Source: Bacteroidales bacterium (GTDB lineage: Bacteria; Bacteroidota; Bacteroidia; Bacteroidales; SM23-62). From it: DNA of 31,523 nt. The stretch is taken from contig JADHVS010000030.1 of assembly GCA_016783865.1 (NCBI GenBank), positions 1-31,523 of the forward strand, in the 5' to 3' direction. Of this stretch, positions 10,154 to 28,467 are shown one piece after another. Under the pieces are notes generated by a model. It saw only the letters and a program-made list of their open reading frames with translations, did not search any database and was not told where the DNA came from. Made by a program: the position numbers and the translations under genes. Numbering within the stretch: the first letter of the stretch is position 1; every line of letters begins with the position of its first letter.

Positions 10154-10204
10154 TACCACGCTGAATCATTTTCGGATTAAACAACTGAATAAGGAGAAAA
10201 TATT

Positions 10205-11260
10205 ATGAAAAACAGAGTCATATTACCTTTAGTGGTCTTCTGCGTGGTGATGGCCGTGATGGTCAGTAGCCTTGATGCGCAGGAGACACAGAATAATAGG
10301 ATCGGGAGCGCAGCAGCAACGGAGCTTCTGATACCGGTTGGTGCGCGGGACATGGCCATGGGGGGGTCGAGCATCGCAATCTCGGAGGGTGTTGAGGCTA
10401 TTCACTGGAACCCTGCCGGTCTGGCACTTCTTGCTACCTCCGCCGAGGGACTGTTCTCTTCGATGTCGTACATTGCTGACATCAATCTAAACTATGGTGC
10501 TGTTGGGGTTTCCTTCGGCCGCAAAGGTGTGGTAGGTCTCAGTGTGAGGTCTTTGGACTTCGGCGACATACCCCTGACCACAAATGACGATCCCGAGGGC
10601 GATGCAGGCAGGACATTCGCCCCCTCATTCATTACTGTAGGGGTGAGCTATGGTTTAAAGTTCACCGATAGGGTCAATGCTGGAGCTACCATTAAAGTAA
10701 TCTCTGAGAAGATGGGTCGAGCGTACGGTTCCGGATTTGCAGTGGACCTTGGTGTGCAATACCATGGGCTCGCTGGTGTCCCTGGACTCAACGTCGGCAT
10801 TGCCATGAAGAACTTCGGTCCCCAGGTTAGCTTTGGTGGATCTGGCTTATTACGCAGAGCTACCTCAAGCGAAGGGCGGCGCCCGGAACAGCATTACCTG
10901 AGCGACGCAGCAAGCTATGAGCTACCATCCGTAGTGGAAATTGGTGTGACCTACGCGCGCTCCTTAGGCGAGAACCTAAATTTGATAACAAATAGCACTT
11001 TCGTAAACAATAACCTGGCCCTCGATTCATACCGGTTCGGTGGCGAAGTAGGCTTCAGTATGGAAAAGTTGCGCTTGTTTGGCCGTGGCGGTATTGAGCT
11101 TTCCCAAACAGGAGATATTGACGAGTTTATTTTTGGTCCCACTCTGGGATTTGGTCTGTACTACGAAGCCGTTGGGATCAACTTTATGCTGGATTATGCT
11201 TGGCGGCAAGTCGAATACTTCAATAACAATTCAGTGTTTTCGTTAAAGTTTGGCTTCTAA
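10205..11260 (+). CDS. PorV/PorQ family outer-membrane protein
   Basis: 351 residues with a signal peptide ending near SSLDAQ, then the family's N-terminal pattern: ATELLIPVGARDMAMGG, AISEGVEAIHWNPAGLA. The rest is an amphipathic beta-barrel with glycine-rich strands ending in FSLKFGF. In Bacteroidota, PorV shuttles T9SS cargo from the translocon to the surface attachment complex and PorQ is a related barrel. This copy follows the 1172-residue sorting-domain protein by 51 bases and is probably co-transcribed, so it may handle that cargo specifically. No other T9SS component is in the window. AAGGAGAAAATATT precedes the start codon. Confidence 0.85.
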   Translation: MKNRVILPLVVFCVVMAVMVSSLDAQETQNNRIGSAAATELLIPVGARDMAMGGSSIAISEGVEAIHWNPAGLALLATSAEGLFSSMSYIADINLNYGAVGVSFGRKGVVGLSVRSLDFGDIPLTTNDDPEGDAGRTFAPSFITVGVSYGLKFTDRVNAGATIKVISEKMGRAYGSGFAVDLGVQYHGLAGVPGLNVGIAMKNFGPQVSFGGSGLLRRATSSEGRRPEQHYLSDAASYELPSVVEIGVTYARSLGENLNLITNSTFVNNNLALDSYRFGGEVGFSMEKLRLFGRGGIELSQTGDIDEFIFGPTLGFGLYYEAVGINFMLDYAWRQVEYFNNNSVFSLKFGF

Positions 11261-11295
11261 GTTTCGCTCGTAAAGTATCTATTAAAATTATAAGG

Positions 11296-11325
11296 AAGGC
11301 TGTCCTTAAGGGCAGCCTTTCTCTT
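11296..11325 (+). terminator. Intrinsic terminator after the PorV-like gene
   Basis: AAGGCTGTCC (11296-11305) pairs with GGGCAGCCTT (11310-11319), 10 bp with one G-T wobble, around the loop TTAA. TCTCTT follows. It closes the receptor, secreted protein and PorV-like unit. Confidence 0.85.
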
Positions 11326-11347
11326 ATCAACCAACCGTAGGTGATAA

Positions 11348-13702: not shown

Positions 13703-13725
13703 TATATTGAAGAAAAGGAGGTCGA

Positions 13726-15099
13726 TTGACTATTAAAAGACTAATTTTCTTGTGTGTTCTCGCTGCGTTCTATGGTGCTGGGCTATTAGCACAGGAGCTT
13801 ACCACCATTGGTTCATTTGTACTTAATCTAGATTATGCAAGGTTTCGCAACGATGATCAATCTGGTTACTTAGAAATCTATTATGGGTTTTATCCCCGCC
13901 TCCTCACCTACCATTGGTCGGAAGGTCAATATAAGGCTGGGGTGCAAATCTGGACTCGATTGAGGAATAATGAGACGAGGGCTTTTGCGGTTAATGAACG
14001 AGCGCTGTTGCAGGTTGCCGCAACGGATACGAATGAGGCTTCGTTCCGTTATCCGTTTATTACCCAAGCCGGTTATCTTATTCCATTGGGCGACTATACC
14101 CTTGAAGTGGTCGCTGCCGACTCGCTCGCCCCGTCGCGTCGAGATAATATCAACTTGACCATTACTATTAATACCTATCCTGGTAGGGTAGGGTGTAGCG
14201 ATTTGGAATTATGCAGCACTATCAAATCTTCCCAACAGAAGGACGATCCCTTCTTCAAAAACTCACTGGAGGTTGTCCCCAACCCCACACTAGTCTTTGG
14301 CATCACCACTAATCCTGTGATATTTAACTATTTGGAGCTGTACAACTTGAACCCCGAAGAAACATACAGGGTGAAAATACTCATAATTAACTCTGATGGG
14401 AATATAGCACGAGAGTCATCAAAAACACGTAAATATGGAGTGAGGAATGCGATTGAGGTGGGTACCACAAACGTGACGTCAATCCTATCAGGGAAATATC
14501 TTTTTCGGCATTTGCTTTTTGACCACAGTTCACGCGAACTAGGTCGAACAGAGAAAACGTTTTTCGTCTATAATCCACATCTGCAAGCCCCTTCGTTAAC
14601 CAGACCTTCTTTCCAATCGATCGAGCTGGCCGGGCTATCAGAAGAGCTACTATCAGCGGAGTTTCGACAGGCACAGTACATTGCATCAGACCGAGATATC
14701 AAGTTGTTCGCACAACTTGACTCTGAAGCCGGTAAGCGGGAGTTCTTGGCAAAATTCTGGGTTGATGTCGAGAGTGGGAGGTTCGACCTTCCACCGATTA
14801 AGCGTGCGCAGCATTTGCAACGTGTCATCGTTGCCAACGAACGGTACCGTTCAATGGGAAAAGAGGGTTGGCGGACAGATCGAGGCCGCGTCTATGTCCT
14901 ATACGGGGAACCAGATGAAATCGATCGATATCCCAGCCTGGGCGAAAGCAAGCCTTACGAGATTTGGCGTTACCATAGAATCGAGAATGGTGTGGAATTC
15001 GTGTTTGTAGATCGTTTAGGCTATGGAGACTATGAGTTAGTTCACTCTACTAAACGCGATGAGTTGCGAGATGATCAATGGCAACGCTTTTTGAGGTAG
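13726..15099 (+). CDS. GWxTD domain-containing exported protein
   Basis: 457 residues with signal peptide ending near GLLAQ. The C-terminal GWxTD domain is clear: FLAKFWVDVE, then EGWRTDRGRVYVLYGEPDEI with G381, W382, T384 and D385, then YEIWRYH and FVFVDRLGYGDYELV. Its biochemical role is not established; the domain is known mainly from exported proteins of Bacteroidota, Acidobacteriota and relatives. The N-terminal half looks like beta-sandwich. The start is TTG at 13726: an AAGGAGGT site lies just before it, no ATG fits, and the signal peptide begins at once. A rare start codon next to a strong site may set a moderate level. The gene follows the PIG-L-like gene by 23 bases. Confidence 0.85.
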   Translation: MTIKRLIFLCVLAAFYGAGLLAQELTTIGSFVLNLDYARFRNDDQSGYLEIYYGFYPRLLTYHWSEGQYKAGVQIWTRLRNNETRAFAVNERALLQVAATDTNEASFRYPFITQAGYLIPLGDYTLEVVAADSLAPSRRDNINLTITINTYPGRVGCSDLELCSTIKSSQQKDDPFFKNSLEVVPNPTLVFGITTNPVIFNYLELYNLNPEETYRVKILIINSDGNIARESSKTRKYGVRNAIEVGTTNVTSILSGKYLFRHLLFDHSSRELGRTEKTFFVYNPHLQAPSLTRPSFQSIELAGLSEELLSAEFRQAQYIASDRDIKLFAQLDSEAGKREFLAKFWVDVESGRFDLPPIKRAQHLQRVIVANERYRSMGKEGWRTDRGRVYVLYGEPDEIDRYPSLGESKPYEIWRYHRIENGVEFVFVDRLGYGDYELVHSTKRDELRDDQWQRFLR

Positions 15100-15209
15100 C
15101 TTCATTTACCACTGGATTCCTGCTTAGGTAGGCGTGATATTAATAGTTGTTATTCCGTAATCCAGTTTTCTTGGTTTTTTACCTGAAACTAATCAGTTAT
15201 GGAAGAGAA

Positions 15210-17483
15210 ATGGCAGCTCACAGAATCATTATCCTGTTGCTCGCTTTTTTAGTTTGTGCCTACCCCGCTGTAACGAATGCCCAGGAAGTTACAATTACCG
15301 GATTCGTACGCGATATAAATACGCACAAAGAGATAAGAGACGTAAATATTTATATAAAAGGTACACAAATCGGTACGACCAGTGACTTTGCAGGAAGGTA
15401 TTTGTTTCGAGTACCCGTTGCCACTCCCCAAATGGTAGTAGTTTTCCGCCATATTGCTTACGAGCAACGGGCAATCCCACTCGAATCGCTTTCGGAGATG
15501 CGCTACGTTTATCTGCAACCACGTGTAATTCCATTTAGGGGCGTTACAATTGAGGAGAAAAGATACAAACCAATAGAGATAGAAAAGGATTTGCCCCAAA
15601 CTATTTCCATGGTTGAAGCGCGGAATTTTGAAATTCGGGGGTATATTGACGCTGGCGATATGCTTAGAATAGATCACAGTGTTCAGGTGGAGGAAGAACT
15701 GAGCGGTAAAAAAACGGTCTCTATTCGCGGTGGCAACCCGGACGAAGTCTTGGTGTTGTATAACGGGATCAAAATGAACAGCACGTATGACAATACCTTT
15801 GATCTGTCGCTTATTGATTTGGAGGATATTGAAAGGTTTGAGATCATCAAGGGCAGCAATACGGCGCTCTACGGCCCTGAAGCATTTTCCGGTGTAATCA
15901 ACATCGTTCCCAAGGTGCAGCACGATTACAATATTCGATTTCAGCAGCGGTTGGGCACCTATCGTTCCGGGAACTGGGGATTGCACCTTTATCACAAGCT
16001 CAACCGTCTGCACGGATCTTACAGTTATAAACGCGGTGGTGCTAAAAGGAATTTTGTTGACATGGCCGATGACAAAGGACGGCTGGAAAACACCTCCTTG
16101 CATCATACCGCCAACCTCAGCTACAATTTTTCTGAACATTCCGATGTGATACTTGCAAATTCTCTGAGAGCCACGTATATCTATTCATCCCTGAATTATA
16201 ACAACCAGCGTGACGTCGAGAGCCTTTCGAATTTCAACGAGTTGCTATCTATCCAATATACAGGCGATATTGCCAGATTAAAAGATCTCGATCTGTCCGT
16301 ATCGCAGCAAAGGTTGGAGGAGGAACAGTTTCTGGTTAGTGGCACTGGTGCGCTTCACCGGAGTATAGAGGGTCGGACTATTTATATTAATACAAAGAAG
16401 GGCCTGAAATTCGGCATAGTAGACTTATTATTAGCCTATCAGTTCCAGCACGCCGAGCTCGATTTCAGCGACGAACGAAGAAATTTCCTTGAGCAACCTA
16501 TCGGTTTGGAGTCTGCGCAATTTCAACGGCAGCACCATGGTCTGGTGTCGATTGCCAAATTAAATGAAGACATCGGCTCGGGGTTTCTTAAGACAATTGA
16601 GGTGAGCGCCAGTTTGCGACACGATCGTGTGCAGGATGAGCAGGCCAATCCAATACTACGTAGCGAGCCGCCGGAGGAGGAGCAAGGAAGCATCGTGGGC
16701 GTTTTTAACGAAAATGACTGGCAAGAAAATATGTATAAGTTTGCCCTGAGCCTATCTGGGGATCGGAAGGATCTCGCTTTTAACGGCTATTTAAGCTGTG
16801 GTATCAATACCAAATTTCCGACCCTGTTTCAGCAGATTAGCTCACCGGCTTTGCTACTAGCAGACGCATCCCGATCAAATCTCAGTCCGGAAAAAAACCG
16901 CAGCTCGGAATTGAGCGTTGTCGTAGCCAGGGACATTCGGGGGAATAGAAGCATCTATGGCTGGCAAATATCCGGCAATTATTTCCAGAACTACTATGAC
17001 AATAAATTTCGCTTTACCATGACACCAGGTGTTCCAGTTAACTTCTATGACAACGTTCCAGATGCACGAATTTCCGGAATTGAGACCAAGTCGAGCGTTT
17101 TCTTCTTCCGCAAGAAGGTGACTATGGAATTGGGTATATCCCGCTACTTCATCTCAGAGAAGGCTGCCTTTCCCTTTAAATCCGACTTCAAACGCACTGT
17201 CAACTTCATCGTTGACCATGCTGGCTATTCATTTCAGATTCACTGGTTCAAAGAAGGGGAGCAAGCGGGATGGGTGCGCCAGAAAAATGGCCATTTTGCA
17301 GAGATAGTGCTCCCTGACTATTCAAACCTCGATTTGCATCTGAGTAAGGCATTCCAACTGGGGAAGTTGAAGCTATTTGCTAACGCCAGCGGACGCAACT
17401 TGTTATATGAAGACGAGGTAGTATTACAAGGTCTGGCCATCCGAGATCGCCGGTTCTACCTCACTGTGGGTGCACAGTACTGA
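15210..17483 (+). CDS. TonB-dependent outer-membrane receptor with carboxypeptidase-regulatory domain
   Basis: 757 residues from ATG 15210; the frame is open upstream to a TTG at 15147, but only from 15210 does a proper signal peptide begin (MAAHRIIILLLAF... ending TNAQ), preceded by GGAAGAG. A carboxypeptidase-regulatory domain (EVTITGFVRDINTHKEI) leads into the plug: VSIRGGNPDEVLVLYNGIKM, IERFEIIKGSNTALYGPEAF and SGVINIVPK, all standard receptor motifs. The barrel ends in FYLTVGAQY. It is shorter than the 1031-residue receptor upstream and not a close duplicate. With the lipoprotein 44 bases downstream it may form a receptor and surface-lipoprotein pair, but that lipoprotein is not SusD-like. 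The ligand is unknown. Confidence 0.9.
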   Translation: MAAHRIIILLLAFLVCAYPAVTNAQEVTITGFVRDINTHKEIRDVNIYIKGTQIGTTSDFAGRYLFRVPVATPQMVVVFRHIAYEQRAIPLESLSEMRYVYLQPRVIPFRGVTIEEKRYKPIEIEKDLPQTISMVEARNFEIRGYIDAGDMLRIDHSVQVEEELSGKKTVSIRGGNPDEVLVLYNGIKMNSTYDNTFDLSLIDLEDIERFEIIKGSNTALYGPEAFSGVINIVPKVQHDYNIRFQQRLGTYRSGNWGLHLYHKLNRLHGSYSYKRGGAKRNFVDMADDKGRLENTSLHHTANLSYNFSEHSDVILANSLRATYIYSSLNYNNQRDVESLSNFNELLSIQYTGDIARLKDLDLSVSQQRLEEEQFLVSGTGALHRSIEGRTIYINTKKGLKFGIVDLLLAYQFQHAELDFSDERRNFLEQPIGLESAQFQRQHHGLVSIAKLNEDIGSGFLKTIEVSASLRHDRVQDEQANPILRSEPPEEEQGSIVGVFNENDWQENMYKFALSLSGDRKDLAFNGYLSCGINTKFPTLFQQISSPALLLADASRSNLSPEKNRSSELSVVVARDIRGNRSIYGWQISGNYFQNYYDNKFRFTMTPGVPVNFYDNVPDARISGIETKSSVFFFRKKVTMELGISRYFISEKAAFPFKSDFKRTVNFIVDHAGYSFQIHWFKEGEQAGWVRQKNGHFAEIVLPDYSNLDLHLSKAFQLGKLKLFANASGRNLLYEDEVVLQGLAIRDRRFYLTVGAQY

Positions 17484-17527
17484 GACAACCGTTTTCAATG
17501 ATTAAAACTTAGAGGGTAAACAAGCAT

Positions 17528-18382
17528 ATGAAAGCAGCGCAGGTTCTCGTCAAGGTGTTAGTCACAGGTGTGTTTTTGGCAAGTCTCTCTGGCTGTACCG
17601 AAAATCCATTTGGTGACGACTCGATCTCCACTGGATCCAGGCAAATTACTGGCAGTGTTCAGCTCCATGACGGTTCCAACCCAGAAGGCGTTTATGTATG
17701 GCTTGAGGGCTTTAACATTGGTACTTACACGGATGAAGCCGGTGACTTTAAGTTAACTCTACAATCGGAATCGAGTCATGGCACATCAAGCGGTCTGAGC
17801 GGTATTTTCAATTTGTATTTCTATATTGCTAATTATCTGATCGACTCCTCGCAGGCTGTTGTCCAAGAGGGTGAATTTGTCTATGAACGGGGAGATATCA
17901 ACAAAGATGGCAGACTAAGTGCACCAAAGGTGATGCGGAGATTCCTACGAATTAACACTTTAGTGGAACCGTCGTCGGTTGTTGCAAATTATACTAATCC
18001 CATTGGAGTAACCGTTACCCTAACGGCTACGATTGATTCAAGTACTGTTATTATTCCCAAGTCAGTTGGGGGACTGCTAGGAGCTATCCTCGTTAAGAAA
18101 ACCGATTCCCAGGAAGTTATCATATACGAATCAGCTCCTTTAGCTGGAACGCGCGCTGTCGTGCTGGTCGGATTATCACCACGTATTATCGGCATGACTT
18201 TCAATCTTCTCCTGCAGCCTCTTGCTCCGGGCAACTATGAAGTTATTCCATATCTGCTCATCGCCCACGAGGCGATTCCTGAGTATCTGATTGAAAGCAT
18301 TGGCCCAAACGTCGAGAAGCTCGGCCCAAATTATCTCAAGATCCCATTTCAGCGAGAGGGGGGTAGTTTTGAGATTAATTGA
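17528..18382 (+). CDS. Lipoprotein with carboxypeptidase-regulatory-like domain
   Basis: 284 residues; lipobox LSGC with Cys23. Residues about 39-75 (ITGSVQLHDGSNPEGVYVWLEG, TYTDEAGDFKL) look like the carboxypeptidase-regulatory beta-sandwich found at the start of the receptors. A short motif GDINKDGRLS near 123-132 resembles a dockerin or EF-hand calcium loop. The remainder is beta-rich without a recognised family. AGAGGG at 17511-17516 precedes the ATG. It is 44 bases after the second receptor and is probably its partner in the outer membrane. Confidence 0.7.
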   Translation: MKAAQVLVKVLVTGVFLASLSGCTENPFGDDSISTGSRQITGSVQLHDGSNPEGVYVWLEGFNIGTYTDEAGDFKLTLQSESSHGTSSGLSGIFNLYFYIANYLIDSSQAVVQEGEFVYERGDINKDGRLSAPKVMRRFLRINTLVEPSSVVANYTNPIGVTVTLTATIDSSTVIIPKSVGGLLGAILVKKTDSQEVIIYESAPLAGTRAVVLVGLSPRIIGMTFNLLLQPLAPGNYEVIPYLLIAHEAIPEYLIESIGPNVEKLGPNYLKIPFQREGGSFEIN

Positions 18383-18504
18383 ATATCTGAGGATACCTGT
18401 GTAATTCTGTTCATAGATAAAAAATCGGGGATAATTAAACAGAACTTCACATAAACTAAAATCTGTAACAGGGTTTTCCCAGGAGAAAAATATAGAGCCA
18501 CACG

Positions 18505-19986
18505 ATGCATTTTAACAATCAAAAGTTGCTTAGGCGGATGATGCTCGTTTGTAGCTTAACCTTTCTTGCCGTCTGTAGCGAAAAGCCGACTCAACCTGGC
18601 AAAAATCCTGTCTCACTCCAAATAACTGCGCCAACGTTATCCATCTTTTCCGGCGGCACGCTGCAGTTATCTGCCATTGTCAGCTTCGCAGATGGAACAA
18701 CCGGTGATGTGACCGCCGAGGCGAACTGGTCAATCCTTCCTGGCCATGCCGGAACCGTGTACGAGGCAGGGCTTTTCGTCGCCACGAATAATTCAACGGG
18801 CGTTGAGACTGTTCGCGTAGACTATCAAGGTCAGACGGCGACTGAGCAAATCGAAGTTACTAAGCGAGCCAGATCATTAGCAGTCTGGCCTGTGACAACT
18901 ACTATCGAATCGGGAGGAAATATCCAGTTTGAAGCCATTGCGGAATTTCAAGATGCCAGCCAGGCATACGTCACTGAGGAGGTAATCTGGTCTCTCACGT
19001 CTGGTGTTATCGCATCTATCGATAGTAGCGGGCTGTTTCGATCTATACAGGGATTTACTGGTCGGGATACAGTGACCGGAAAGTTTCAAGCATTAACCAC
19101 ACAGAGCCAGGTGCAGGTGCAAGAGACGTTAGAAAATCCATTTGAAATGGTAACAATACCTGCTGGTAGTTTTATAATGGGTGATGATAGTAGTCAATGG
19201 GCCAATGAAAAACCAGCTCATGAAGTGTACACGGATGCTTTTGAAATTAGTAAGCATGAAGTTACCAATGAGCAGTACGCTGCTTATTTGAACGAGGCCC
19301 TCGACGCTGGTGAAATTTATGTTGAATCGGGCATTGTAACGGGTAGAAAAGGTCCTTTTGCATGGCTGACTTACTTAAGATTGTCGGGAAGTCCGCAGTT
19401 TCCGGATAGATATATTGAATATGTGGAGGTTGAACAGGGTATCTTCGCATTTCGTGTTAAGCCGGGATTTGAACAGTACCCAGTGGTAAGGTTGAATTGG
19501 TATGGTGCTGCTGCCTTTTGTTCTTTTTATGGCCTGCGCTTGCCAACCGAGGCAGAATGGGAGAACGCCTGTCGTGGGGGCCAACAACTAGAATACGGAA
19601 CACAAGATGGCAGCATCAGTCACGACTTGGCTAATTATGCAGGAGTGGGTGGTGGCGATATATACGAGGGCTTAGCGCCGATCCGTTCGTTCCCCCCGAA
19701 TCCATCCGAGCTATACGATATGAGTGGAAATGCCGCTGAGTATGTTTTTGACATTTATGATGCAAATTACTACTCTGTAAGCCCCACAACGAATCCTACT
19801 GGCCCAGGACCTGCTATGCCTATTGGCCGAATTCCTGGTGGCTTATCTCTTTGGCGAGGTGGCTCTTGGCTCTTTAACACCCAATTTTCCAGCTCCGCTT
19901 TTCGTGGATATATCGATGATCTGGCCGATACGAATTTATTGATCAACGGTTTTGTTGGTTTTCGCGTAGCGCGATCGTTGCCCTGA
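18505..19986 (+). CDS. Ig-like and SUMF1 (formylglycine-generating-enzyme-fold) protein, probably a lipoprotein
   Basis: 493 residues. The N-terminus is hydrophobic and ends in LAVC, a near-lipobox with unusual Val at -1. Two bacterial Ig-like (BIG2-type) domains follow at about 35-120 and 121-210. Residues 215-492 are a SUMF1/FGE-sulfatase fold: MVTIPAGSFIMG, HEVTNEQYAAYLN, GLRLPTEAEWENACRGG, LYDMSGNAAEYVFD, LWRGGSW and GFVGFRVAR. Active formylglycine-generating enzymes use cysteines just after RGGSW; here the segment is RGGSWLFNTQFSSSAFRG, with none. It is therefore more likely a binding or structural protein than a sulfatase activator, and no sulfatase gene is in the window. The best ribosome site (AGGAG, 18481-18485) is unusually far from the ATG. 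Confidence 0.8.
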   Translation: MHFNNQKLLRRMMLVCSLTFLAVCSEKPTQPGKNPVSLQITAPTLSIFSGGTLQLSAIVSFADGTTGDVTAEANWSILPGHAGTVYEAGLFVATNNSTGVETVRVDYQGQTATEQIEVTKRARSLAVWPVTTTIESGGNIQFEAIAEFQDASQAYVTEEVIWSLTSGVIASIDSSGLFRSIQGFTGRDTVTGKFQALTTQSQVQVQETLENPFEMVTIPAGSFIMGDDSSQWANEKPAHEVYTDAFEISKHEVTNEQYAAYLNEALDAGEIYVESGIVTGRKGPFAWLTYLRLSGSPQFPDRYIEYVEVEQGIFAFRVKPGFEQYPVVRLNWYGAAAFCSFYGLRLPTEAEWENACRGGQQLEYGTQDGSISHDLANYAGVGGGDIYEGLAPIRSFPPNPSELYDMSGNAAEYVFDIYDANYYSVSPTTNPTGPGPAMPIGRIPGGLSLWRGGSWLFNTQFSSSAFRGYIDDLADTNLLINGFVGFRVARSLP

Positions 19987-20063
19987 GTCCTAGGTCCATC
20001 CATCCTGAGAATGTGGGGATGAAAAGAACCGTTTAGTGTTAAATCCTGTCCGATTAGTACTAC

Positions 20064-20096
20064 CGAAAGAATTGATTAATGGGCTGTACTCTTTCG
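20064..20096. repeat. Inverted repeat upstream of the aminopeptidase gene
   Basis: CGAAAGA (20064-20070) and TCTTTCG (20090-20096) are perfect inverted arms separated by 19 bases, 36 bases before the M1 aminopeptidase start. It could be a protein-binding operator or a weak hairpin in the leader. Confidence 0.3.
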
Positions 20097-20131
20097 ATAA
20101 TCAGATAATAAATTTTTGGGGGGTAAAGTAA

Positions 20132-22636
20132 ATGAATAAGAGAAAAATGCCGGGATGGATTTTATCTGCGATTTTCATCCTTAGCTTGCTTAATTCAACA
20201 CATGCCCAAAGCTTACCCAAGGGAAAGTACCATCGAAACCGGGAACGGGTTATTGACATTATTCACTATAAAGCTGAGCTGAATTTTGATTTCAGTAAAA
20301 AAGAGGTAGCGGGAAAAGCGACTGTGATTTTCTGTCCACTGAATAAAATAAACAAATTTTCCTTAGATGCAATGCGACTGAAATTCGATACAGTTGATCT
20401 TATTCAAGAAACTGTAGCTAATCCATTAAAATTTGAACATCATGACCAAGCCCTTGAAATAACCCTTGATCGAATATATTCACCGAGAGATACTGTGACT
20501 GTGTCTATACGTTATTTAGCCCAACCCAATGCTGGTATGTATTTCTCGAAGGATTATGAAAAAGATGTCCAATTCTACATTTATACCTATGGAGAAGGAG
20601 GCCTTCACGCGAACTGGCTTCCCATTTATAACGACGTCAACGATAAATTCTCGACGGAGATGGTGGTAACCGTACCGCCTCCTTACACAGTCATCTCTAA
20701 TGGAAAATTAATAAATGTTGAAAAGCTGGAAAATGGGAGTCAGACTTTTCACTGGAAACAGGATTTACCCCATCCGAATTATCTCATTTCTATTTATGTA
20801 GGCGAATTTGAAAAGGGAGATCTACCGCCTGCATTTGGCACAATCCCGCTTAGCTACTGGGTTCCAAAAGGGAGATTGAAAGAGGGTGCTTACGTGTTTC
20901 GTAATACTACCAGGATGGTGGAATTCTTTTCAAACCGGTTTAATTACAAATACCCCTGGGATAAGTACGATCAAATAGCCTTTCCAGATTATGCCATAGG
21001 GGCAATGGAACATACTTCCATAACTGGACATCGGGCTTCGATGTTAAGAGATGAACATGCGCCTTCAAATTTTGGTCCCCCAGATTTCGAGAGTTATCAT
21101 AATGTTTGGACTGCTGAGGGTGTAATTGCCCATGAATTGGCGCATCATTGGTTTGGGAATAATCTAACCTGCCGTAATCTAAACTACCTCTGGTTGAACG
21201 AGAGTTTTGCCACCTATTGCCAGATGCTTTGGGATGAAGAATTTATGGGAAAAGAAACGCTTCTTCTTGACAGGCAGGATGCTATAGATCGTTACATGAA
21301 CTATGTGGCCGAAGAACATCTTATTCGCCCATTGGAGTATTCCTATTACGATACAGTTGGAGAAATTTATACGATAGAACTTACTTACTTCAAAGGGGCT
21401 ATAATCCTTCATATGTTGAGAAACATCCTGGGCGATGAGGATTTCTTTCGTACCTGGAGTTATTATCTGCACAAACATGAATTTTCCAATGTGAAAAGCC
21501 AGGATTTCAAGATCGCGATTGAAGAAGCCACAGGGAAAAATCTTGATTGGTTCTTTGATGATTGGATTTATGGCGGGGGATACCCGATTTTTGAAGTCAG
21601 TTATACCTATCTAAAAGATTGTAAACTCATTGACCTAACCGTTAAACAAGTCCAAGCGATCATTAAGGGTCAGGATCTGTTTACCTTACCGGTTGAGATA
21701 ATTATCGCCACTTCAAAAGGAGTAAAAAGGGAAACCATTTGGGTGAAAACCAAGGAAGATCAATTCCTCCTTGGTTGCGATGAGGAACCACTGATGGTCA
21801 GTTTTGATGGCAAGGGTGCTCTGGTGGCAGAGATCAGATTTAACAAGTCACTTGATGAACTGCTTTATGAGATAGAAAATGGTGAACTTCCCGGTCGCAT
21901 CTGGGCGATGAGGGAAATTGCTAATCGGTTTCCAGTACATCCAAAATCCTTACAAGCAATTTCAAACACCATATCAGGTGCCGCATTTTGGGGGCTGAAA
22001 GCCGAAGCAGCTCTTCTTTTGGGTAAACTCCGTACTCCAGAAGCAGAAAAGGTGATCTCAAAAGCATTGAAATCATTCAATTATAGAATTCGAAAAGCTG
22101 CTGTTTTGGCCTTACCGAATTTCAGGATACATTTTGCCGAGAAGATATTGAAAAATATCATAAAAAAAGACCCACATTCAGATGTAGTAGCAACAGCTAT
22201 TGTGGCATTGGCAAGAACCAACCCAGATGGTCAAACCGACTTCATACGTAAGCAAATCAACCGATCTTCCTGGTACGATGAGATTAAGATAGCCTGTTTG
22301 AAAGCATTCGAAATCATCGGAAATGAACGATTGGTTTCGTATATTAGGACCTTTACCGATGAAAAATACCATGAGTTTACTCGAATTGGTGCGCTCGAAG
22401 CTTGGAAGAGTTGCAGGCCTGATGATAGGGAATTACACGAGATTTTGATGAACAATGCTAAAGACACTCAAGCTGGTGTTCAACTGTTTTCGACAGAATC
22501 ATTGGGGTTGCTATACGTAGCTGAGGCTGTGCCACTTCTTGAAAAGATAGTCGACACATCTGGAGATATTGATTTCAGGGTTGCAGCAAAAAAGGCGCTA
22601 GTTGAGATAAAAAGAGTGGCTGATGCAAGTAAATAA
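20132..22636 (+). CDS. Exported M1 family aminopeptidase with HEAT-like C-terminus
   Basis: 834 residues with signal peptide ending THAQ. The M1 zinc site is intact: HELAH at 334-338 and the third ligand E357 in WLNESF, the standard HExxH-18-E spacing. The substrate-anchoring motif is GAMEH at 290-294, where the classical form is GAMEN. The catalytic tyrosine is probably the one in ELTYFKGA. From about residue 575 the protein is helical with HEAT-like repeats (AEAALLLGKL, IRKAAVLALPNF, VVATAIVALAR). It should remove N-terminal residues from peptides outside the cytoplasm. The stop codon lies inside the first copy of the 45-base direct repeat described at 22622. A GGGGGG tract 9 bases before ATG is the likely ribosome site. 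Confidence 0.92.
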   Translation: MNKRKMPGWILSAIFILSLLNSTHAQSLPKGKYHRNRERVIDIIHYKAELNFDFSKKEVAGKATVIFCPLNKINKFSLDAMRLKFDTVDLIQETVANPLKFEHHDQALEITLDRIYSPRDTVTVSIRYLAQPNAGMYFSKDYEKDVQFYIYTYGEGGLHANWLPIYNDVNDKFSTEMVVTVPPPYTVISNGKLINVEKLENGSQTFHWKQDLPHPNYLISIYVGEFEKGDLPPAFGTIPLSYWVPKGRLKEGAYVFRNTTRMVEFFSNRFNYKYPWDKYDQIAFPDYAIGAMEHTSITGHRASMLRDEHAPSNFGPPDFESYHNVWTAEGVIAHELAHHWFGNNLTCRNLNYLWLNESFATYCQMLWDEEFMGKETLLLDRQDAIDRYMNYVAEEHLIRPLEYSYYDTVGEIYTIELTYFKGAIILHMLRNILGDEDFFRTWSYYLHKHEFSNVKSQDFKIAIEEATGKNLDWFFDDWIYGGGYPIFEVSYTYLKDCKLIDLTVKQVQAIIKGQDLFTLPVEIIIATSKGVKRETIWVKTKEDQFLLGCDEEPLMVSFDGKGALVAEIRFNKSLDELLYEIENGELPGRIWAMREIANRFPVHPKSLQAISNTISGAAFWGLKAEAALLLGKLRTPEAEKVISKALKSFNYRIRKAAVLALPNFRIHFAEKILKNIIKKDPHSDVVATAIVALARTNPDGQTDFIRKQINRSSWYDEIKIACLKAFEIIGNERLVSYIRTFTDEKYHEFTRIGALEAWKSCRPDDRELHEILMNNAKDTQAGVQLFSTESLGLLYVAEAVPLLEKIVDTSGDIDFRVAAKKALVEIKRVADASK

Positions 22637-22666
22637 ACGAAGAGCGAGAAGGAAGTCAAAAATGAA
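22622..22666 (+). repeat. 45-base direct repeat, copy 1
   Basis: It differs from copy 2 (24056-24100) at only 2 of 45 positions (GGAAGTC against GGAGGTT). Copy 1 covers the last codons of the aminopeptidase gene (DASK and stop), an A+G-rich ribosome site, and an ATGAA. Weaker similarity runs on for about 19 more bases (14 of 19 by eye). To the left the two copies diverge abruptly. Confidence 0.92.
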
Positions 22667-22694
22667 GCACAGATTACTAAATTTAGAGGAATGA
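22662..22694 (+). pseudogene. Broken 10-codon start of the downstream secreted-protein gene
   Basis: The ATG in repeat copy 1 opens MKHRLLNLEE and stop. It lines up with MKQKLFYLSL, the start of the secreted protein at 24096. The stop at 22692-22694 is one base before the ATG of the barrel gene, so it may now act as a leader coupling translation to that gene. Confidence 0.55.
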
Positions 22695-22695
22695 A

Positions 22696-24021
22696 ATGAA
22701 ATTGCTTCAGTATATTCGCATTTGGATTTTGTTTGGGTTGTGTGTGTTCCTTACAGATAATCTTCATGCCCAACTTTCCGCCTGTCACAGCATTATGTTT
22801 CCCTATGATAATCCCAATAGAGTAATTTATTCTGCCGGAAGTTTGACATATTCTGCCGCCGATTATTCTGCAAACATTCAAAGCAATCCGGTAAGTTTTT
22901 CATTTGTTGAAAAGCCACAAATATTTTTCATTCTTAATCAAGATATTTCAAGATATCATATAACAGACATCAGGATAAATAAAACTCTTTTTAATAATGG
23001 GAATAATGATAAAGAAAGAAAACTTGATCCAGAATATAAACTATATCCAATATTTATATCATGCACTCTACCTTTGAATGTCGCTAACCAGAGAATTTTT
23101 CTGTCAGCATCATTAAACAAAATCCAGATGCCTGAACACGAAGTGCGGTTGACTGGCAATGAATATCCTGGTTTGGATCCCGAATTGGATTTCCATCATC
23201 AAAGGGATGGGCATGTTTGGAATGCCACGATGAATATTGGTTATCAGTTCCCCTTAAATATCAATTTGGGAATAACCTGGAGCCAATGGTTTGGCAGTTA
23301 TCATTGGTATGATTATAACACCTCACAGAGTGTCATCGGAGAAGGTAAATTCAAATATGATGGGAACAACTTCAGTATTGGTCTTCTAAAAAAGTATAAG
23401 GATCATTCGATTTCGATTAGTTATCATGCACCTCTCACATTAATGAAGGCGGATGATATTTACATCAAAAATATGGGTGAAGATAAGTATACTCTTCAAC
23501 AGAAATTTGATGGCGCTTTCAAATTGGGCATTGCTTTTATATTGAATGATAAATCAACGTTGTCTTTTGGCTATAGATATCAAAACAAATTTTCAATTGA
23601 AGGAATAGCAGTAAGATATGATAAGAGTCGTGAAATAAAGTATGAATACAGCAATTCACATCAAATTGCCATAGCATATGAATATATTGTTTATTTTAAA
23701 GGAAAAAAGCTTCCGGTCTTTTTATCCTATTGGGCAGATTGGCTTCCTAAAAAATCCGGATTTGGCCAATTAAATATTTATCAGGACTTTTCTGGCGATT
23801 ATCATTATCAACTTCCAGAGCTATATGAAAACATTGCTGGAGGTATTTGTTTTCCGTTTTATTTCTTGAATATTCATTTAACCGGTCAGTTGAATTTATA
23901 TCCAATTAGCGTAACGTACCTCCCGCTTAATTATACCCATATTATTCCACCATTGAGCTTTGATGCGAAAAGAATGAATGTCATATTCAATTTTGGTGTT
24001 TCGTATGCTTTTAAAAGATGA
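22696..24021 (+). CDS. Outer-membrane beta-barrel protein, FadL/OmpP1-like
   Basis: 441 residues with signal peptide ending NLHAQ. The body is a run of amphipathic strands with conserved-looking barrel phrases (LSFGYRYQNKF, KLGIAFILNDKSTLSFGY, LGITWSQWFG) and a C-terminal strand ending FGVSYAFKR. The pattern resembles the FadL/OmpP1 hydrophobic-substrate channels, but similarity is too weak by eye to assign a substrate. The gene is much more AT-rich than both neighbours: 13 and 17 G+C in the 60-base lines at 22981 and 23581, against 26 at 21301 and 34 at 24841. With the flanking direct repeats this suggests a later insertion between the aminopeptidase and secreted-protein genes. Confidence 0.65.
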   Translation: MKLLQYIRIWILFGLCVFLTDNLHAQLSACHSIMFPYDNPNRVIYSAGSLTYSAADYSANIQSNPVSFSFVEKPQIFFILNQDISRYHITDIRINKTLFNNGNNDKERKLDPEYKLYPIFISCTLPLNVANQRIFLSASLNKIQMPEHEVRLTGNEYPGLDPELDFHHQRDGHVWNATMNIGYQFPLNINLGITWSQWFGSYHWYDYNTSQSVIGEGKFKYDGNNFSIGLLKKYKDHSISISYHAPLTLMKADDIYIKNMGEDKYTLQQKFDGAFKLGIAFILNDKSTLSFGYRYQNKFSIEGIAVRYDKSREIKYEYSNSHQIAIAYEYIVYFKGKKLPVFLSYWADWLPKKSGFGQLNIYQDFSGDYHYQLPELYENIAGGICFPFYFLNIHLTGQLNLYPISVTYLPLNYTHIIPPLSFDAKRMNVIFNFGVSYAFKR

Positions 24022-24055
24022 AAATTCGTTTTATCGTCCTCAGCAACTCGCTGCG

Positions 24056-24100
24056 GATGCAAGTAAATAAACGAAGAGCGAGAAGGAGGTTAAAAATGAA
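24056..24100 (+). repeat. 45-base direct repeat, copy 2
   Basis: Second copy, 1434 bases after copy 1. Here the segment supplies the ribosome site GAAGGAGG and the first codons of the secreted-protein gene, while the aminopeptidase-end codons (DASK, stop) are present only as a fossil outside any gene. Confidence 0.92.
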
Positions 24101-25874
24101 ACAAAAATTATTCTATTTAAGCTTATTGACCTTCATTTTTGTCTCCGTAGAATCTTTTGCCCGAGAGCTTGCTACGGATCGTGCTCCATTATCGTTCCGG
24201 AAATCCTCCGGCAAACCTATGGCCACGCTGGTAAACATCAATAACATGTCTATGTGGGTTCAAGCCAACGGGAGCAATCGGAATGTGATTTACCCAAGAG
24301 GAACGGCCACTGTTGTTTGGAATGATGGTATCGTATGGGGAGGTTTCGTGAAAGATGACCATGATCCTGAACTTAGAGTAGGCGGACAAAGGTGGATCAT
24401 CGGCACTGTACCGGGGTGTATACTGTCTAAGGGGATTGCCGAAGATCCCAATGATCCAAATGTTCGTATCTGGCGCATTCGCCCAGACTGGCAAACAGCT
24501 GATTTGACCCAGGATGCGGCTGAATATTTTAATATCCCAATGGATAGTGTGAGGCAGGTGCAAATTGATGCAGTTCGGGTCCAATACGAAAAGGACCGGA
24601 ATGAATGGCCCTGGCAAAAAGGCGCTCCTTTTTATGATACAAATGGTAACAAAATTATGGATCATGGCGAAGAGCCGGGTTTAGCCCATGCAGATCACGT
24701 GGTGTGGTTTGTAGCCAACGATCTTGATGCTGCGGTGACAACAAATTTCTTTGGTTCACCACCAATCGGTTTGGAGATGCAAGTAACTTTATGGGCCTAT
24801 AATCGTACCGGATCGAGATTGAATGACGCTTTTCAGAACGCCATCTTCAAGCGCGCTAGACTCATTTACAAAGGCCGAGCCGATACACCGGACACGGCTC
24901 GTATTGATAGTATGTTTATTGGACAAGTTGTTGACCCGGATGTAGGAAAAGCCGGGGATGACTTTGCGGGTTGTGACACCTTACTTCAACTTGGTTATGG
25001 TTATAATTCCAAAAGTATAGATAATGATTTTCAGAAATTCAATATTTTTGCACCCGCTATTGGATATACACTGATTCAAGGTCCGATCGTGGCAAGTAAT
25101 AATCCTTTAGATTATGCAAACTTTGATTTTGGAAAACGAAGTGGTTTTATCAATTTACCCATGACGTCTTTCTGGCAAAAAGCAACAGGAACTACGGTCC
25201 GCATTGATATTTACGCCTTTAAAATGTACAAGGCCATGACTGGATTTTTACCTTTAATGGATAGCGAAGAACCTTTTTGGGATTGTAATGGGAACCCAAC
25301 AAGATTTATGGTCAGCGGCGATCCGGTTAAAGGAACGGGGTGTATAGATGGTATGCGTCATGTGCATCCAGGATTTCCAGGAGATCGTAGTTTTCAGATG
25401 AGTTCCGGACCTTTCACCATGTCCTTAGGCGACACACAGGAAGTTGTCATTGCCATAGTAGGGGGGATCGGTTCAGGTTGCCTGGCCAGTGTTTCTGTCA
25501 TGAAACATCATGTCAAGTGGGCTCGATTCTATGCACAGTGGGTTTTTGTAACAGGACTCGAAGAGGAGCCGCTTACTGAAGAATTATTATTACCACAAAA
25601 TTTTCGTCTATATCAGAACTATCCCAATCCATTCAATGTCAGCACCGAAATTTGTTACGATCTTCCAATTACTAAAAGTGTGAAATTGGCCATATATAAC
25701 CTGATGGGTCAAGTGGTTAAAGTCCTTGTGAATGAAACTCAGGAAGCCGGGAATTATGTATTTCAATGGGATGGAATGGACGTGCGTGGTGAGAAAGTGC
25801 CCAGTGGAATTTATTTATACAGAATTGAAGCAGGGTATTGGGTCTTGACAAAGAAAATGATACTGTTGCGGTAA
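24096..25874 (+). CDS. Secreted protein with T9SS type A sorting domain, short paralogue of the 1172-residue protein
   Basis: 592 residues from ATG 24096, where GAAGGAGG and a signal peptide (MKQKLFYLSLLTF... ending SFA) agree; the frame is open upstream to 24018 but that part is highly basic and has no signal. Residues about 40-480 match the 1172-residue protein: VNINNMSMW, DGIVWGG, RVGGQRW, NLPMTSF, GPIVAS, and DTQEVVIAIVGGIGS. It then skips the fibronectin-like and later regions and goes through a short linker to a canonical sorting domain (QNYPNPFNVSTEI, LAIYNLMGQVVKVL, FQWDGMD, PSGIYLYRI, KKMILLR). It is expected to reach the cell surface by a type IX route. The shared domain has no function that I can name. 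Confidence 0.85.
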   Translation: MKQKLFYLSLLTFIFVSVESFARELATDRAPLSFRKSSGKPMATLVNINNMSMWVQANGSNRNVIYPRGTATVVWNDGIVWGGFVKDDHDPELRVGGQRWIIGTVPGCILSKGIAEDPNDPNVRIWRIRPDWQTADLTQDAAEYFNIPMDSVRQVQIDAVRVQYEKDRNEWPWQKGAPFYDTNGNKIMDHGEEPGLAHADHVVWFVANDLDAAVTTNFFGSPPIGLEMQVTLWAYNRTGSRLNDAFQNAIFKRARLIYKGRADTPDTARIDSMFIGQVVDPDVGKAGDDFAGCDTLLQLGYGYNSKSIDNDFQKFNIFAPAIGYTLIQGPIVASNNPLDYANFDFGKRSGFINLPMTSFWQKATGTTVRIDIYAFKMYKAMTGFLPLMDSEEPFWDCNGNPTRFMVSGDPVKGTGCIDGMRHVHPGFPGDRSFQMSSGPFTMSLGDTQEVVIAIVGGIGSGCLASVSVMKHHVKWARFYAQWVFVTGLEEEPLTEELLLPQNFRLYQNYPNPFNVSTEICYDLPITKSVKLAIYNLMGQVVKVLVNETQEAGNYVFQWDGMDVRGEKVPSGIYLYRIEAGYWVLTKKMILLR

Positions 25875-25885
25875 GGAAAACCATT

Positions 25886-25914
25886 TTGACAGTATTTGTT
25901 AGTTGAACACAGTA
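25886..25914 (+). promoter_or_regulatory. Possible promoter of the serine hydrolase gene
   Basis: A perfect TTGACA at 25886-25891 is followed after 17 bases by ACAGTA (25909-25914), a poor -10 box. It lies 41 bases before the hydrolase start. Confidence 0.25.
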
Positions 25915-25955
25915 AAGTACATTATCAATAGTCAGTAACTTACTTGGAGGAAACT

Positions 25956-27491
25956 ATGCTTAAACCATTCTACCAAATCACACGAACGGCGCTGCTTCTA
26001 ATTTTCCTGCTGTTGGTTGTCGTTCCAACGAACGCTCAGATAGACCCTCTCACTGATCTGAACGCCTATGTCGAAAAAGCTATGCGGGATTGGAAGGTTC
26101 CCGGTTTAGCAATCGGAATTGTTAAAAATGACTCCCTTATCTTTGCAAAAGGCTATGGGGTCAGGGAAATCGGAAAGGAAGCGAAGGTAGATGAGCAGAC
26201 ACTCTTTGCTGTGGCCTCAAATACAAAGGCATTTACGGCAGCGCTGCTCGGTATGCTTGTAGATGAAGGCAAGCTCAGTTGGGATGATCGGGTGACCGAT
26301 TATTTAAAAGAATTCCAAATGTATGATCCCTTTATCACGCGCGAGATTAATATTCGTGACCTGCTCACACACCGCAGTGGACTACCGACCTTCGGGGGTG
26401 ATCATTTATGGATCGGTAACTCTCTTAGTCGCGATGAAATAATAGCCCGTATTCGTTATCTGAAGCTGAATGCGCAATTTCGCACAAAATTTCAATATCA
26501 GAATCTTATGTTTCTGGTAGCCGGTCAGATCATTCCAAAAATTATAGGTGTGAGCTGGGACGTGACCATTAAGGAGCGGATATTCACACCCTTAGGCATG
26601 GTGGAGAGCAACACGAGCATTATGAAGAATAAGGAAAATGTTGCTACTCCCCATGAGATTGTTAGGGGTAAATTAATACCAGTCGAGTATGATAATGTCG
26701 ATAATACCGCTCCTGCAGGAGCGATTAACTCAAACGTCGTGGAAATGGCGCAGTGGATGAGACTCAATCTTAATGATGGCGTTTACAAAGGTAAGCGGAT
26801 TCTTAGTCCCCAAGTGATGCGGGAAATGCATGCCATTCAAATGCCAATCACAATCTCAGCAGATAGAGAGAAGATGCTGGGAACACATTTCTTGGGATAC
26901 GGCTTAGGCTGGAGCATTTCAGATTACAAAGGTCATAAAATAATAAGCCATGGTGGTGGCTTATCAGGTATGATTTCTCTTCAGACAATGATCCCTGAGG
27001 AAAATCTCGGAGTGATTATTCTCACAAACTTAGCCCCCCACTCATTGACCCGAGCATTGACATATAGAATCTTGGATGCCTTTCTCGGCGAACCGGAGCG
27101 GGATTGGAGTGTCGCATACCTGGAACGCAGGAAAGAAGAAAGAGAAAAAAAGGAAAAAGCTGAAAAAGAATTGCAAGCAAAGCGGGTTAAAAGAACCAAA
27201 CCATCGCTTAAATTAAAAGATTACACCGGTAAATATTCTGACGAGTTATCAGGAGAGGCAGAAGTCAGACTTGAGAACCGTAAACTTGTCTTTGATTATA
27301 ATCCAAGGCATATTGGTGATTTAGAACACTGGCATTATAATACCTTTCGGGTTACCTGGCGTAATCCCATTTACGATATGCCTGAGAAAGCATTTCTTAC
27401 TTTTTATTTAAATGAAATGGGGAAGGTGGCTAAATTAAAAGTTACATTTTATGATCCCATCTATTTTAAAAAGGTACCCGGGTCTGAATAA
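25956..27491 (+). CDS. Exported serine hydrolase of the beta-lactamase (S12, class C-like) family with DUF3471-like tail
   Basis: 511 residues from ATG 25956, preceded by GGAGG at 25946-25950; an in-frame TTG at 25944 would destroy that site. The signal peptide ends PTNAQ. Catalytic motifs are complete: S88-N-T-K91 (SxxK), Y181-Q-N183 (YxN) and H332-G-G334 in place of KTG. A charged linker rich in K and E (about 385-410) leads to a C-terminal domain of the DUF3471 type (LKDYTGKYSDELSGEAEVRLENRKL). Family members include D-aminopeptidases, esterases and muropeptide hydrolases; true beta-lactamase activity is uncertain. With the dipeptide epimerase and aminopeptidase nearby, a peptide or muropeptide substrate is the better guess. 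Confidence 0.9.
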   Translation: MLKPFYQITRTALLLIFLLLVVVPTNAQIDPLTDLNAYVEKAMRDWKVPGLAIGIVKNDSLIFAKGYGVREIGKEAKVDEQTLFAVASNTKAFTAALLGMLVDEGKLSWDDRVTDYLKEFQMYDPFITREINIRDLLTHRSGLPTFGGDHLWIGNSLSRDEIIARIRYLKLNAQFRTKFQYQNLMFLVAGQIIPKIIGVSWDVTIKERIFTPLGMVESNTSIMKNKENVATPHEIVRGKLIPVEYDNVDNTAPAGAINSNVVEMAQWMRLNLNDGVYKGKRILSPQVMREMHAIQMPITISADREKMLGTHFLGYGLGWSISDYKGHKIISHGGGLSGMISLQTMIPEENLGVIILTNLAPHSLTRALTYRILDAFLGEPERDWSVAYLERRKEEREKKEKAEKELQAKRVKRTKPSLKLKDYTGKYSDELSGEAEVRLENRKLVFDYNPRHIGDLEHWHYNTFRVTWRNPIYDMPEKAFLTFYLNEMGKVAKLKVTFYDPIYFKKVPGSE

Positions 27492-27558
27492 ATATTAGGC
27501 TTGATGTTTGTTATTGAAACTCTGCAAAGCTCATAATATTGAGCTAAAGGCGTTTAGT

Positions 27559-28317
27559 ATGAAAACGATTCTCATAATGTTTTTTATCATTGTGATTTTT
27601 AAATCGCAATTATGGGCACAGCATTATATTACGCTTGGATTGGGATTAAGTGGAGCATTCTATGATTCTGAAGATCTAGATCGTTTCAAGGAAACATATA
27701 ATTTAGTGAATAAACAAAGTCTTTCGAGGTCCATGCAAGGCCTTGGAGAAGCGGTGGGTTTACGGTGGGAAGGAGGTTATCGTTATCTTGGTCGTTTAGG
27801 TATAGCGGTTTTAGTTGGAACACAAAACTATATAGGTAAAGATGCAGCCCAATATCGAAATGGTGAAGCGAGGAATCTAGAACTCGAAATGAACAGTTTA
27901 TATGTTGAATGTGAAATAGGACGCACGCATAAGATCTTCTTTGTGAATGGCATATTCACCTTCTTTTTCAATAGAACATTAATCCTTGAAAGCACATATT
28001 CCGGATCAATGAGCGAAAGTCCATTGAATGGAACTTATACAGGCGATACCTCTGTTTCAACAGATATGGGGATTGCGATAGGAATATTTAAAGATCCGAT
28101 TATTATTACTGGTAAAATAACCTATCCTATTTTTACCAGGGGTGAATCCACCGTTTTACAGGATAAAAGAATCAAAAAAGTCGAAAATGGGACCGATATT
28201 TTCCCTAATGATTATGTGGATTACTGTTATAGTAAGACGTACGATGGAATCGCAAGCGATATTGATGGATTGAAGATTTTAGTGACAGTTGCCTATGCAA
28301 TTCCGTTAAAGAAGTAA
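27559..28317 (+). CDS. Small predicted outer-membrane protein, function unknown
   Basis: 252 residues from ATG 27559; the frame is open upstream to 27508, but the signal peptide (MKTILIMFFIIVIF... ending LWAQ) starts at 27559. Only a weak AAAGG precedes it. The remainder alternates polar and hydrophobic residues and is glycine- and tyrosine-rich (YITLGLGLSGAFYD, GGYRYLGRLGIAVLVG), ending in ILVTVAYAIPLKK, as expected for a small barrel. I do not recognise a family. It follows the serine hydrolase by 67 bases. Confidence 0.6.
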   Translation: MKTILIMFFIIVIFKSQLWAQHYITLGLGLSGAFYDSEDLDRFKETYNLVNKQSLSRSMQGLGEAVGLRWEGGYRYLGRLGIAVLVGTQNYIGKDAAQYRNGEARNLELEMNSLYVECEIGRTHKIFFVNGIFTFFFNRTLILESTYSGSMSESPLNGTYTGDTSVSTDMGIAIGIFKDPIIITGKITYPIFTRGESTVLQDKRIKKVENGTDIFPNDYVDYCYSKTYDGIASDIDGLKILVTVAYAIPLKK

Positions 28318-28467
28318 TTATGGAGTCCGAATAAACGGTTGAGTTTGTGCCGATTCAGAAATACATCTGTTTATCGTGTTGGAAATCTTTTTTGAATTAA
28401 TAATAACTGATCGCCCTGAACTGCATCGGACAGTGCGTAAGATTTAAAAGCATAAGGAGGTGAACAA

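Follow-up and report, generated by a model that had tools for sequence, protein, structure and literature searches.

The closest described proteins to the outer-membrane beta-barrel considered here are those of the FadL/TodX family and BamG, the FadL-family subunit of the beta-barrel assembly machinery (BAM) complex of Bacteroidota. Homology-facilitated illegitimate recombination, which occurs in natural transformation, lets a genome gain foreign DNA with no mobile element involved, one side being homologous and the other joined without homology. In the Bacteroidales contig JADHVS010000030.1 (GCA_016783865.1; the whole 31,523 nt stretch is referred to here as the window), a barrel gene is found between the genes for an M1-family aminopeptidase and a 592 amino acid (aa) secreted protein, and is bounded by a direct repeat that carries the junction of these two neighbours. 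Insertion of the barrel gene into that junction is well supported by comparison with a relative, and distant homologs of the barrel form what is probably an undescribed selenoprotein family. The insertion is ordinary in kind, and its scar is unusually legible.

The initial annotation described a 45 bp direct repeat with two differences, beginning in the aminopeptidase gene and ending in the start of the secreted-protein gene. The repeat coordinates bear this out (two differences in the 45 nt from position 22622), and the similarity is longer than first reported, with 58 of 67 nt identical (87%; nine differences) in an ungapped alignment that extends 24 nt into the secreted-protein gene. When up to three mismatches were allowed, a 32 nt core was found twice in the window, both times exact, and was absent from 100 shuffled sequences, so the repeat is not due to chance. 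A dispersed intergenic repeat was considered and rejected, as the core is present only twice in the window and a 27 nt core had no exact match in 130 loci and the viral collection. Copy 1, which includes the tail of the aminopeptidase gene, also holds the cut-off start of a secreted-protein gene, and the two-gene junction is therefore older than the presence of the barrel gene. In this copy, 25 nt separate the aminopeptidase stop (22636) from the start codon (22662), fewer than the approximately 31 bp initially proposed for the ancestral spacing. The truncated start forms a leader open reading frame (ORF) with a stop codon that precedes the barrel ATG (22696) by one base, with GAGGA just upstream, and translational coupling of the leader to the barrel gene is possible. 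A short inverted pair, CTCGCT and AGCGAG (24047–24082), straddles the right boundary and may be there by chance.

A profile of the 592 aa protein (14 rows, including the window's own) retrieved 79 loci from the genome collection. One of them, L001 in the Neomarinimicrobiota metagenome-assembled genome (MAG) B71T3L11, is collinear with window positions 9174–28365 apart from indels, and the alignment consists of five long pieces of 81–90% nucleotide identity and one 171-column piece of 72%. In L001, the aminopeptidase gene (product 84% identical) is followed after 22 nt by the secreted-protein gene (86% identical, GTG start), with a single junction copy at 9961–10023 and no barrel gene there. 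This is the uninterrupted junction with one repeat copy that the initial annotation had suggested looking for in related genomes, and together with the truncated start in copy 1 it upholds the proposal that the barrel gene entered a once-adjacent pair. The barrel profile had no match at E ≤ 0.001 in G001, the genome behind L001, the completeness of which has not been established. Copies 1 and 2 differ from the L001 junction at 10 and 11 of 64 positions plus a 3 nt indel, and from each other at 9 of 67. As stated initially, neither a transposase nor terminal inverted repeats were evident in the inserted segment: no transposase-type ORF was present among those of at least 100 aa, and its flanks showed no inverted repeats. 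We conclude that insertion of the barrel gene into an ancestral aminopeptidase/secreted-protein junction is well supported by these sequence comparisons.

A second difference from L001 lies further to the left. A 493 aa gene at window positions 18505–19986 is missing there, and its 3′ end survives beside the lipo284 stop, with a 5 nt match, ATCTG, at the join. The site of this deletion corresponds to 18390–19918 in the window and 7262–7330 in L001. The 493 aa product is formylglycine-enzyme-like by eye only, with no domain scan behind the label.

The initial annotation also pointed to the AT-richness of the middle gene. At 33.9% GC, the barrel gene is indeed lower than its two neighbours (40.6% and 43.6%) and falls 10.5 points short of the value for the remaining window (44.4%), but as proof of insertion this is weak on its own. 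Other genes among the 17 scored in the window are also low (trigger-factor-like, 32.7%; a 269 aa gene, 36.3%; clpP, 39.7%), and the codon-usage comparison that had been proposed placed the barrel gene only fifth highest of the 17 (distance 0.351). Eight barrel genes in seven other genomes, one of them partial, ranged from −5.7 to +3.2 points relative to the rest of their own loci. The trigger-factor-like and clpP genes, both named by eye, lie at 1058–2940 and, at 33–40% GC, are much AT-richer than most of the window.

The two repeat copies look like two junction alleles rather than one duplicated target, copy 1 having the HR form and copy 2 the QK form, which is nearer to L001. The secreted protein begins MKQKLLNL in L001 and in the related protein P0012, MKQKLFYL in the intact gene of the window and MKHRLLNL in P0011 (88% identical), which is an exact match to the remnant in copy 1. 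Of the 670 relatives 120 were listed, and in that list KHRLLNL near the N-terminus is confined to P0011. Had the allele of copy 1 simply been duplicated, H and R would have reverted to Q and K in copy 2. Divergence from L001 also drops nearby. Identity at fourfold-degenerate sites is 0.65 in the aminopeptidase gene and 0.81, 0.85 and 0.90 in the three genes to its right, and a one-changepoint model gave a log-likelihood ratio of 34.7 (maximum 8.1 in 500 permutations) with the best position at approximately 24.88 kb. Synonymous divergence was 0.39–0.61 on the left, apart from the fast-evolving lipo284 (1.68), and 0.31, 0.21 and 0.23 in the three right-hand genes, a fall from about 0.6 to about 0.2 over the barrel region (window positions 20132–28317). 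Within the N-terminal 50 residues of the secreted protein, six sites unite the window with L001 and one unites it with P0011, while for residues 451–550 the counts are 5 and 15. In the aminopeptidase, 27 sites in residues 701–800 are shared with L001 alone and three with P0131 alone, a pattern reversed in most other blocks.

Several observations weigh against reading these data as two alleles brought together at the insertion. The changepoint falls approximately 0.8 kb inside the secreted-protein gene, off the repeat, and synonymous rates vary by gene. The protein sites form a mosaic at more than one place, and the allele match could thus reflect unrelated exchanges. The window's secreted protein is almost equally close to L001 (87.1%) and P0011 (87.9%), the copy-to-copy and copy-to-L001 distances differ by few sites, and P0077, a remote relative, also begins MKHR. 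Trees gave the window no resolved place among the relatives. L001 is, moreover, the only relative with readable junction DNA, with no outgroup sharing the junction. A proposed link between P0011 and barrel-free contigs was dropped, as the sizes used seem to describe cluster representatives only. P0012 and P0017, type IX secretion system proteins that are 84% and 62% identical to that of the window, have near-identical signal peptides (LLNLNLLVFILVSVQSFGQELATD), and the 5′ ends of secreted-protein genes of this type may have been exchanged.

The order of events that we favour starts from an aminopeptidase gene and a type IX-secreted protein gene separated by a short gap. In the lineage of the window, a 1367 bp segment with a single FadL-fold barrel gene would have been captured at codon 8–9 of the secreted-protein gene, and a second copy of the junction, arriving with the segment, would have kept that gene whole, so that neither neighbour was broken. 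The barrel gene would thereby have been placed just behind the leader ORF, which would supply a start and a ribosome site. Judging from the allele match, the left junction would be the resident P0011-like allele and the right the QK, L001-like allele of the incoming DNA. We consider this capture, with the second junction allele, probable. How it came about is more tentative: uptake by transformation or a similar route, followed by recombination through homology on the side of the secreted-protein gene and by end-joining of the foreign barrel fragment on the other, would amount to homology-facilitated illegitimate recombination, a possibility to which we give a little less than an even chance. 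In view of the allele match, the site mosaic and the drop in divergence, we lean towards an exchange with a second lineage at the right end and an illegitimate join at the left. The right side has the divergence step and the allele mosaic, and beyond the left join there is no similarity to L001.

If the barrel gene and both repeats were instead ancestral, L001 would have deleted the barrel gene by recombination between the 67 nt repeats. Direct repeats readily delete, and the loss from L001 of the gene between lipo284 and the aminopeptidase gene, with its 3′ end kept and the join at ATCTG, shows that L001 does lose genes and keeps loss of the barrel gene alive. We nevertheless regard loss as unlikely, since the repeat copies are nearer to each other than to L001, the barrel profile matches only three of the 245 genomes of the phylum, and the GC contrast of the barrel gene is strong. 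The remnant in copy 1 would in any case still put the two-gene junction first, and only the age of the insertion would change. Integration by a single crossover of a circle carrying the barrel gene and a junction copy, close to the circular or tandem intermediate put forward in the initial annotation, would leave a junction copy on either side, each of them mosaic, and, if the circle came from the P0011 lineage, would explain the P0011-like start in copy 1. An intermediate of one and the same junction fits poorly, as the copies carry different alleles and the nearby drop in divergence from L001 points to a second lineage. Neither a circle nor an integrase nor a related free form turned up, and at E ≤ 1e-5 the barrel protein was unmatched in 72,556 plasmid and 50,697 phage records, a result that also led us to reject cargo of a mobile element; we rate integration of a circle about as unlikely as loss. 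When the barrel profile was searched against viral contigs, none of 58 pattern matches was confirmed.

The clean boundaries and preserved neighbours would also suit a target-site duplication produced by a transposition-like enzyme acting in trans. Target duplications are, however, usually 2–14 nt, far shorter than the 67 nt found here, there are no inverted repeats, and the copies follow a two-allele pattern. No comparable flanking pair was present in six regions around barrel homologs, the nearest approach being one 22 nt pair in L124 (77%, copies 1394 nt apart, one of them inside the barrel gene). Such a duplication is very improbable, and the same is true, if anything more so, of an assembly artefact joining two strains. 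The record is perhaps metagenomic and the locus is mosaic, but the barrel protein (one member sequence) occurs on three contigs, the longest 104,813 bases, and both neighbours and their reading frames are intact. Capture into the ancestral junction remains our preferred explanation.

The barrel protein has a predicted FadL-type barrel fold. Its score with PF03349 was 14.4 bits, below the curated cut-off of 29.7; NF053685 did not match it and reached at most 55.8 in its homologs (cut-off 250). A search of NCBIfam (June 2026) with nine proteins at E ≤ 0.1 returned only the BamG, PorV, PorQ and AcfA models and no selenoprotein family. The protein collection held eight non-self relatives, seven at 72–38% identity and an eighth, covered only in part (59%), at 81%. 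The genome sets searched with the barrel profile overlap, and their phylum labels rest on MAG titles. At E ≤ 1e-5, the class to which G001 belongs had matches in 2 of 171 genomes, its phylum in 3 of 245 and the phylum of the KSB1 MAG (L003) in 8 of 82. At 1e-8, 10 of 40 genomes in the phylum of the Calditrichaceae MAG (L021) matched, with only G338 strong (1.5e-105). None of 64 genomes in the phylum of the L009 genome matched at 1e-15, and the 10 genomes behind other loci gave no match at 1e-4.

No aminopeptidase and no full-length relative of the secreted protein were found in seven larger loci around barrel relatives, and the idea that the barrel–aminopeptidase pairing is conserved elsewhere was dropped. 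Type IX sorting tails were present in two barrel loci, adjoining the barrel in L129 and approximately 8 kb away in L123. The neighbours vary between genomes, and no functional pattern was drawn. At 9492–9741 in L123, the 3′ end of the G214 barrel gene appears a second time 147 nt further on, with a run of Ns in between, perhaps a collapsed tandem barrel.

Most strong matches to the barrel profile contain one internal TGA, always in the same place ahead of the last strand. The site follows the motif P[YWF][ST]-TGA-x(4-6)-S[SR][FY][DE] before the last strand, and the coding sequence is conserved on both sides. Barrel genes of this kind were found in 11 genomes (G163, G165, G214, G273, G284, G286, G287, G289, G324, G325 and G338) from the phyla of the Neomarinimicrobiota, KSB1 and Calditrichaceae MAGs. 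The one in G165 (WFS-TGA) is on a short contig and was read by eye, and that in G325 is near-identical to the G324 gene. When the motif was searched in 155 loci, TGA matches were confined to barrel loci, and the one non-TGA match was a TAA in an unrelated locus.

A hairpin resembling a selenocysteine insertion sequence (SECIS) lies 3′ of the TGA, with a three-base loop that has G first. Covariation was examined in 10 sequences, with G325 left out. The seven-pair helix is paired in 92.9% of cells, and its covariation of 0.413 compares with 0.145 ± 0.040 in shuffled alignments (0/500 as high) and at most 0.089 when the helix is slid. With the position fixed, 65 of 70 pairs form, compared with 42.5 ± 4.3 when synonymous codons are drawn at random (0/20,000). 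When the position was rechosen for each draw, nine full genes gave 58/63, compared with 46.3 ± 2.4 and a maximum of 55 (0/5,000). Minimum-energy folds included the helix in seven of the nine sequences folded. A tRNA-Sec (for selenocysteine, Sec) was found by ARAGORN in 9 of the 11 genomes, not in G325 or G338, and SelB exceeded its cut-off in 9 of 10 (not G165; G338 was outside the set). The background is high (57/82 and 166/245 genomes in these phyla), so that these matches answer to what Sec would need and add little proof. Disappearance of the Sec trait from the window's lineage was considered as the cause of Sec loss from its barrel and set aside; the L001 genome has tRNA-Sec and SelB.

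Points on the other side are that G286 and G289 fold otherwise, that single-sequence z-scores are weak (+0.05 to −2.24), that none of 12 weaker FadL-like loci scanned has the TGA, and that G287 has a second barrel copy without it. The two G287 copies are in tandem on the minus strand of L125 (6835–8109 and 8167–9447), one with PPYS-TGA and the other with PPSSM, a Sec/non-Sec pair. Taken together, the barrels with in-frame TGA and hairpin are probably an undescribed selenoprotein family.

In a model of the G286 protein (predicted local distance difference test score 79.8), the predicted Sec residue is 407, in a loop between strands 380–398 and 412–431, which presumably faces outside, by FadL topology. 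At this site P0006 has PPWS-C-AGLTSSNFDAKK, aligned to PPWS-U (U entered as Cys), though in one sequence only. The window's own barrel reads PPLS-FDAKR without a TGA, and the residue and its surroundings have been lost. In a family tree built without the C-terminal columns (17 rows, midpoint root), every row outside the window's clade has the TGA except the second G287 copy, two changes suffice, and G273 is on a long branch. Selenoprotein ancestry of the inserted gene is strongly supported at the level of sequence. It is likely that the gene comes from an undescribed, patchily distributed FadL-fold outer-membrane selenoprotein family of the three MAG phyla named above, with Sec in an outward loop before the last strand, that Sec is ancestral in the sampled family and was lost in the window's clade, with P0006 retaining a Cys relic, and that what entered the secretion-linked gene row was a compact unit lacking a promoter. 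The features are listed in Table 1.

Table 1. Positions of features in the window and loci with a TGA and hairpin
Feature	Position or locus	Strand	Details
M1-family aminopeptidase with HEAT repeats, 834 aa	20132..22636	+	Pfam PF01433, PF17900, PF13646
Repeat copy 1	22619..22685	+	Last five codons and stop of aminopeptidase gene, 25 nt gap, first 8 codons of secreted-protein gene
Leader ORF, MKHRLLNLEE*	22662..22694	+	Remnant of secreted-protein gene start; ATG at 22662, stop at 22692–22694
Inserted segment, 1367 bp	22686..24052	+	No counterpart in L001
Outer-membrane beta-barrel, 441 aa, predicted FadL fold	22696..24021	+	Sec-less member of a family with in-frame TGA in distant members
PPLSFD, residues 418–423	23947..23964	+	Corresponds to TGA site of distant homologs; TGA and following residues gone here
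Repeat copy 2	24053..24119	+	Aminopeptidase tail (ADASK*, five codons and stop), gap, start of intact 592 aa gene
Secreted protein with type IX secretion sorting domain, 592 aa	24096..25874	+	PF18962, PF13860
TGA with SECIS-like hairpin	L123, L124, L125, L126, L127, L128, L118, L119, L120, L143, L082		

The locus shows in legible form how a single gene enters a gene row without a visible mobile element: the empty site, both junction alleles and the truncated gene start can still be seen and the neighbours are undamaged. In our view the selenoprotein by-product matters more than the insertion itself. If correct, Sec chemistry would have a new setting in a surface loop of a FadL-type channel, beyond the reducing interior of the cell, and such genes would be shortened wherever annotation takes the TGA for a stop codon. 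The family offers Sec, Cys, Met and deletion states at one site and is directly testable.

Compared with FadL/TodX and BamG, the barrel family scores far below the curated cut-offs, a ligand or a role in the BAM complex is not implied, and in its distant members the last loop contains an in-frame TGA. Unlike in homology-facilitated illegitimate recombination as known, the captured piece would here be DNA of a third kind, set between two junction alleles that overlap. As in bacterial SECIS elements, for which the usual spacing is 16–37 nt, the hairpin is directly behind the TGA, with its loop 16–22 nt after it; the stem, however, is short, and the hairpin is SECIS-like by sequence only. In a search of the literature for selenocysteine with FadL, none of the papers listed was on point, judged by title. 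A 2026 review that covers prokaryotic selenoproteins (PMC13188914) sets out 119 families or subfamilies in its Table 1, with no FadL-type barrel among the selenoproteins listed in that table. Its predicted selenoproteins include the MtrB/PioB type (GSU2204 family, NF041027), also an outer-membrane barrel, and a TonB receptor of the FCYXU type (NF049945), both of which belong to families other than the FadL-fold barrels. As these two are already listed, selenoproteins of the outer membrane are not in themselves a novelty, but the FadL-fold family appears to be new as far as the literature, that table and NCBIfam tell.

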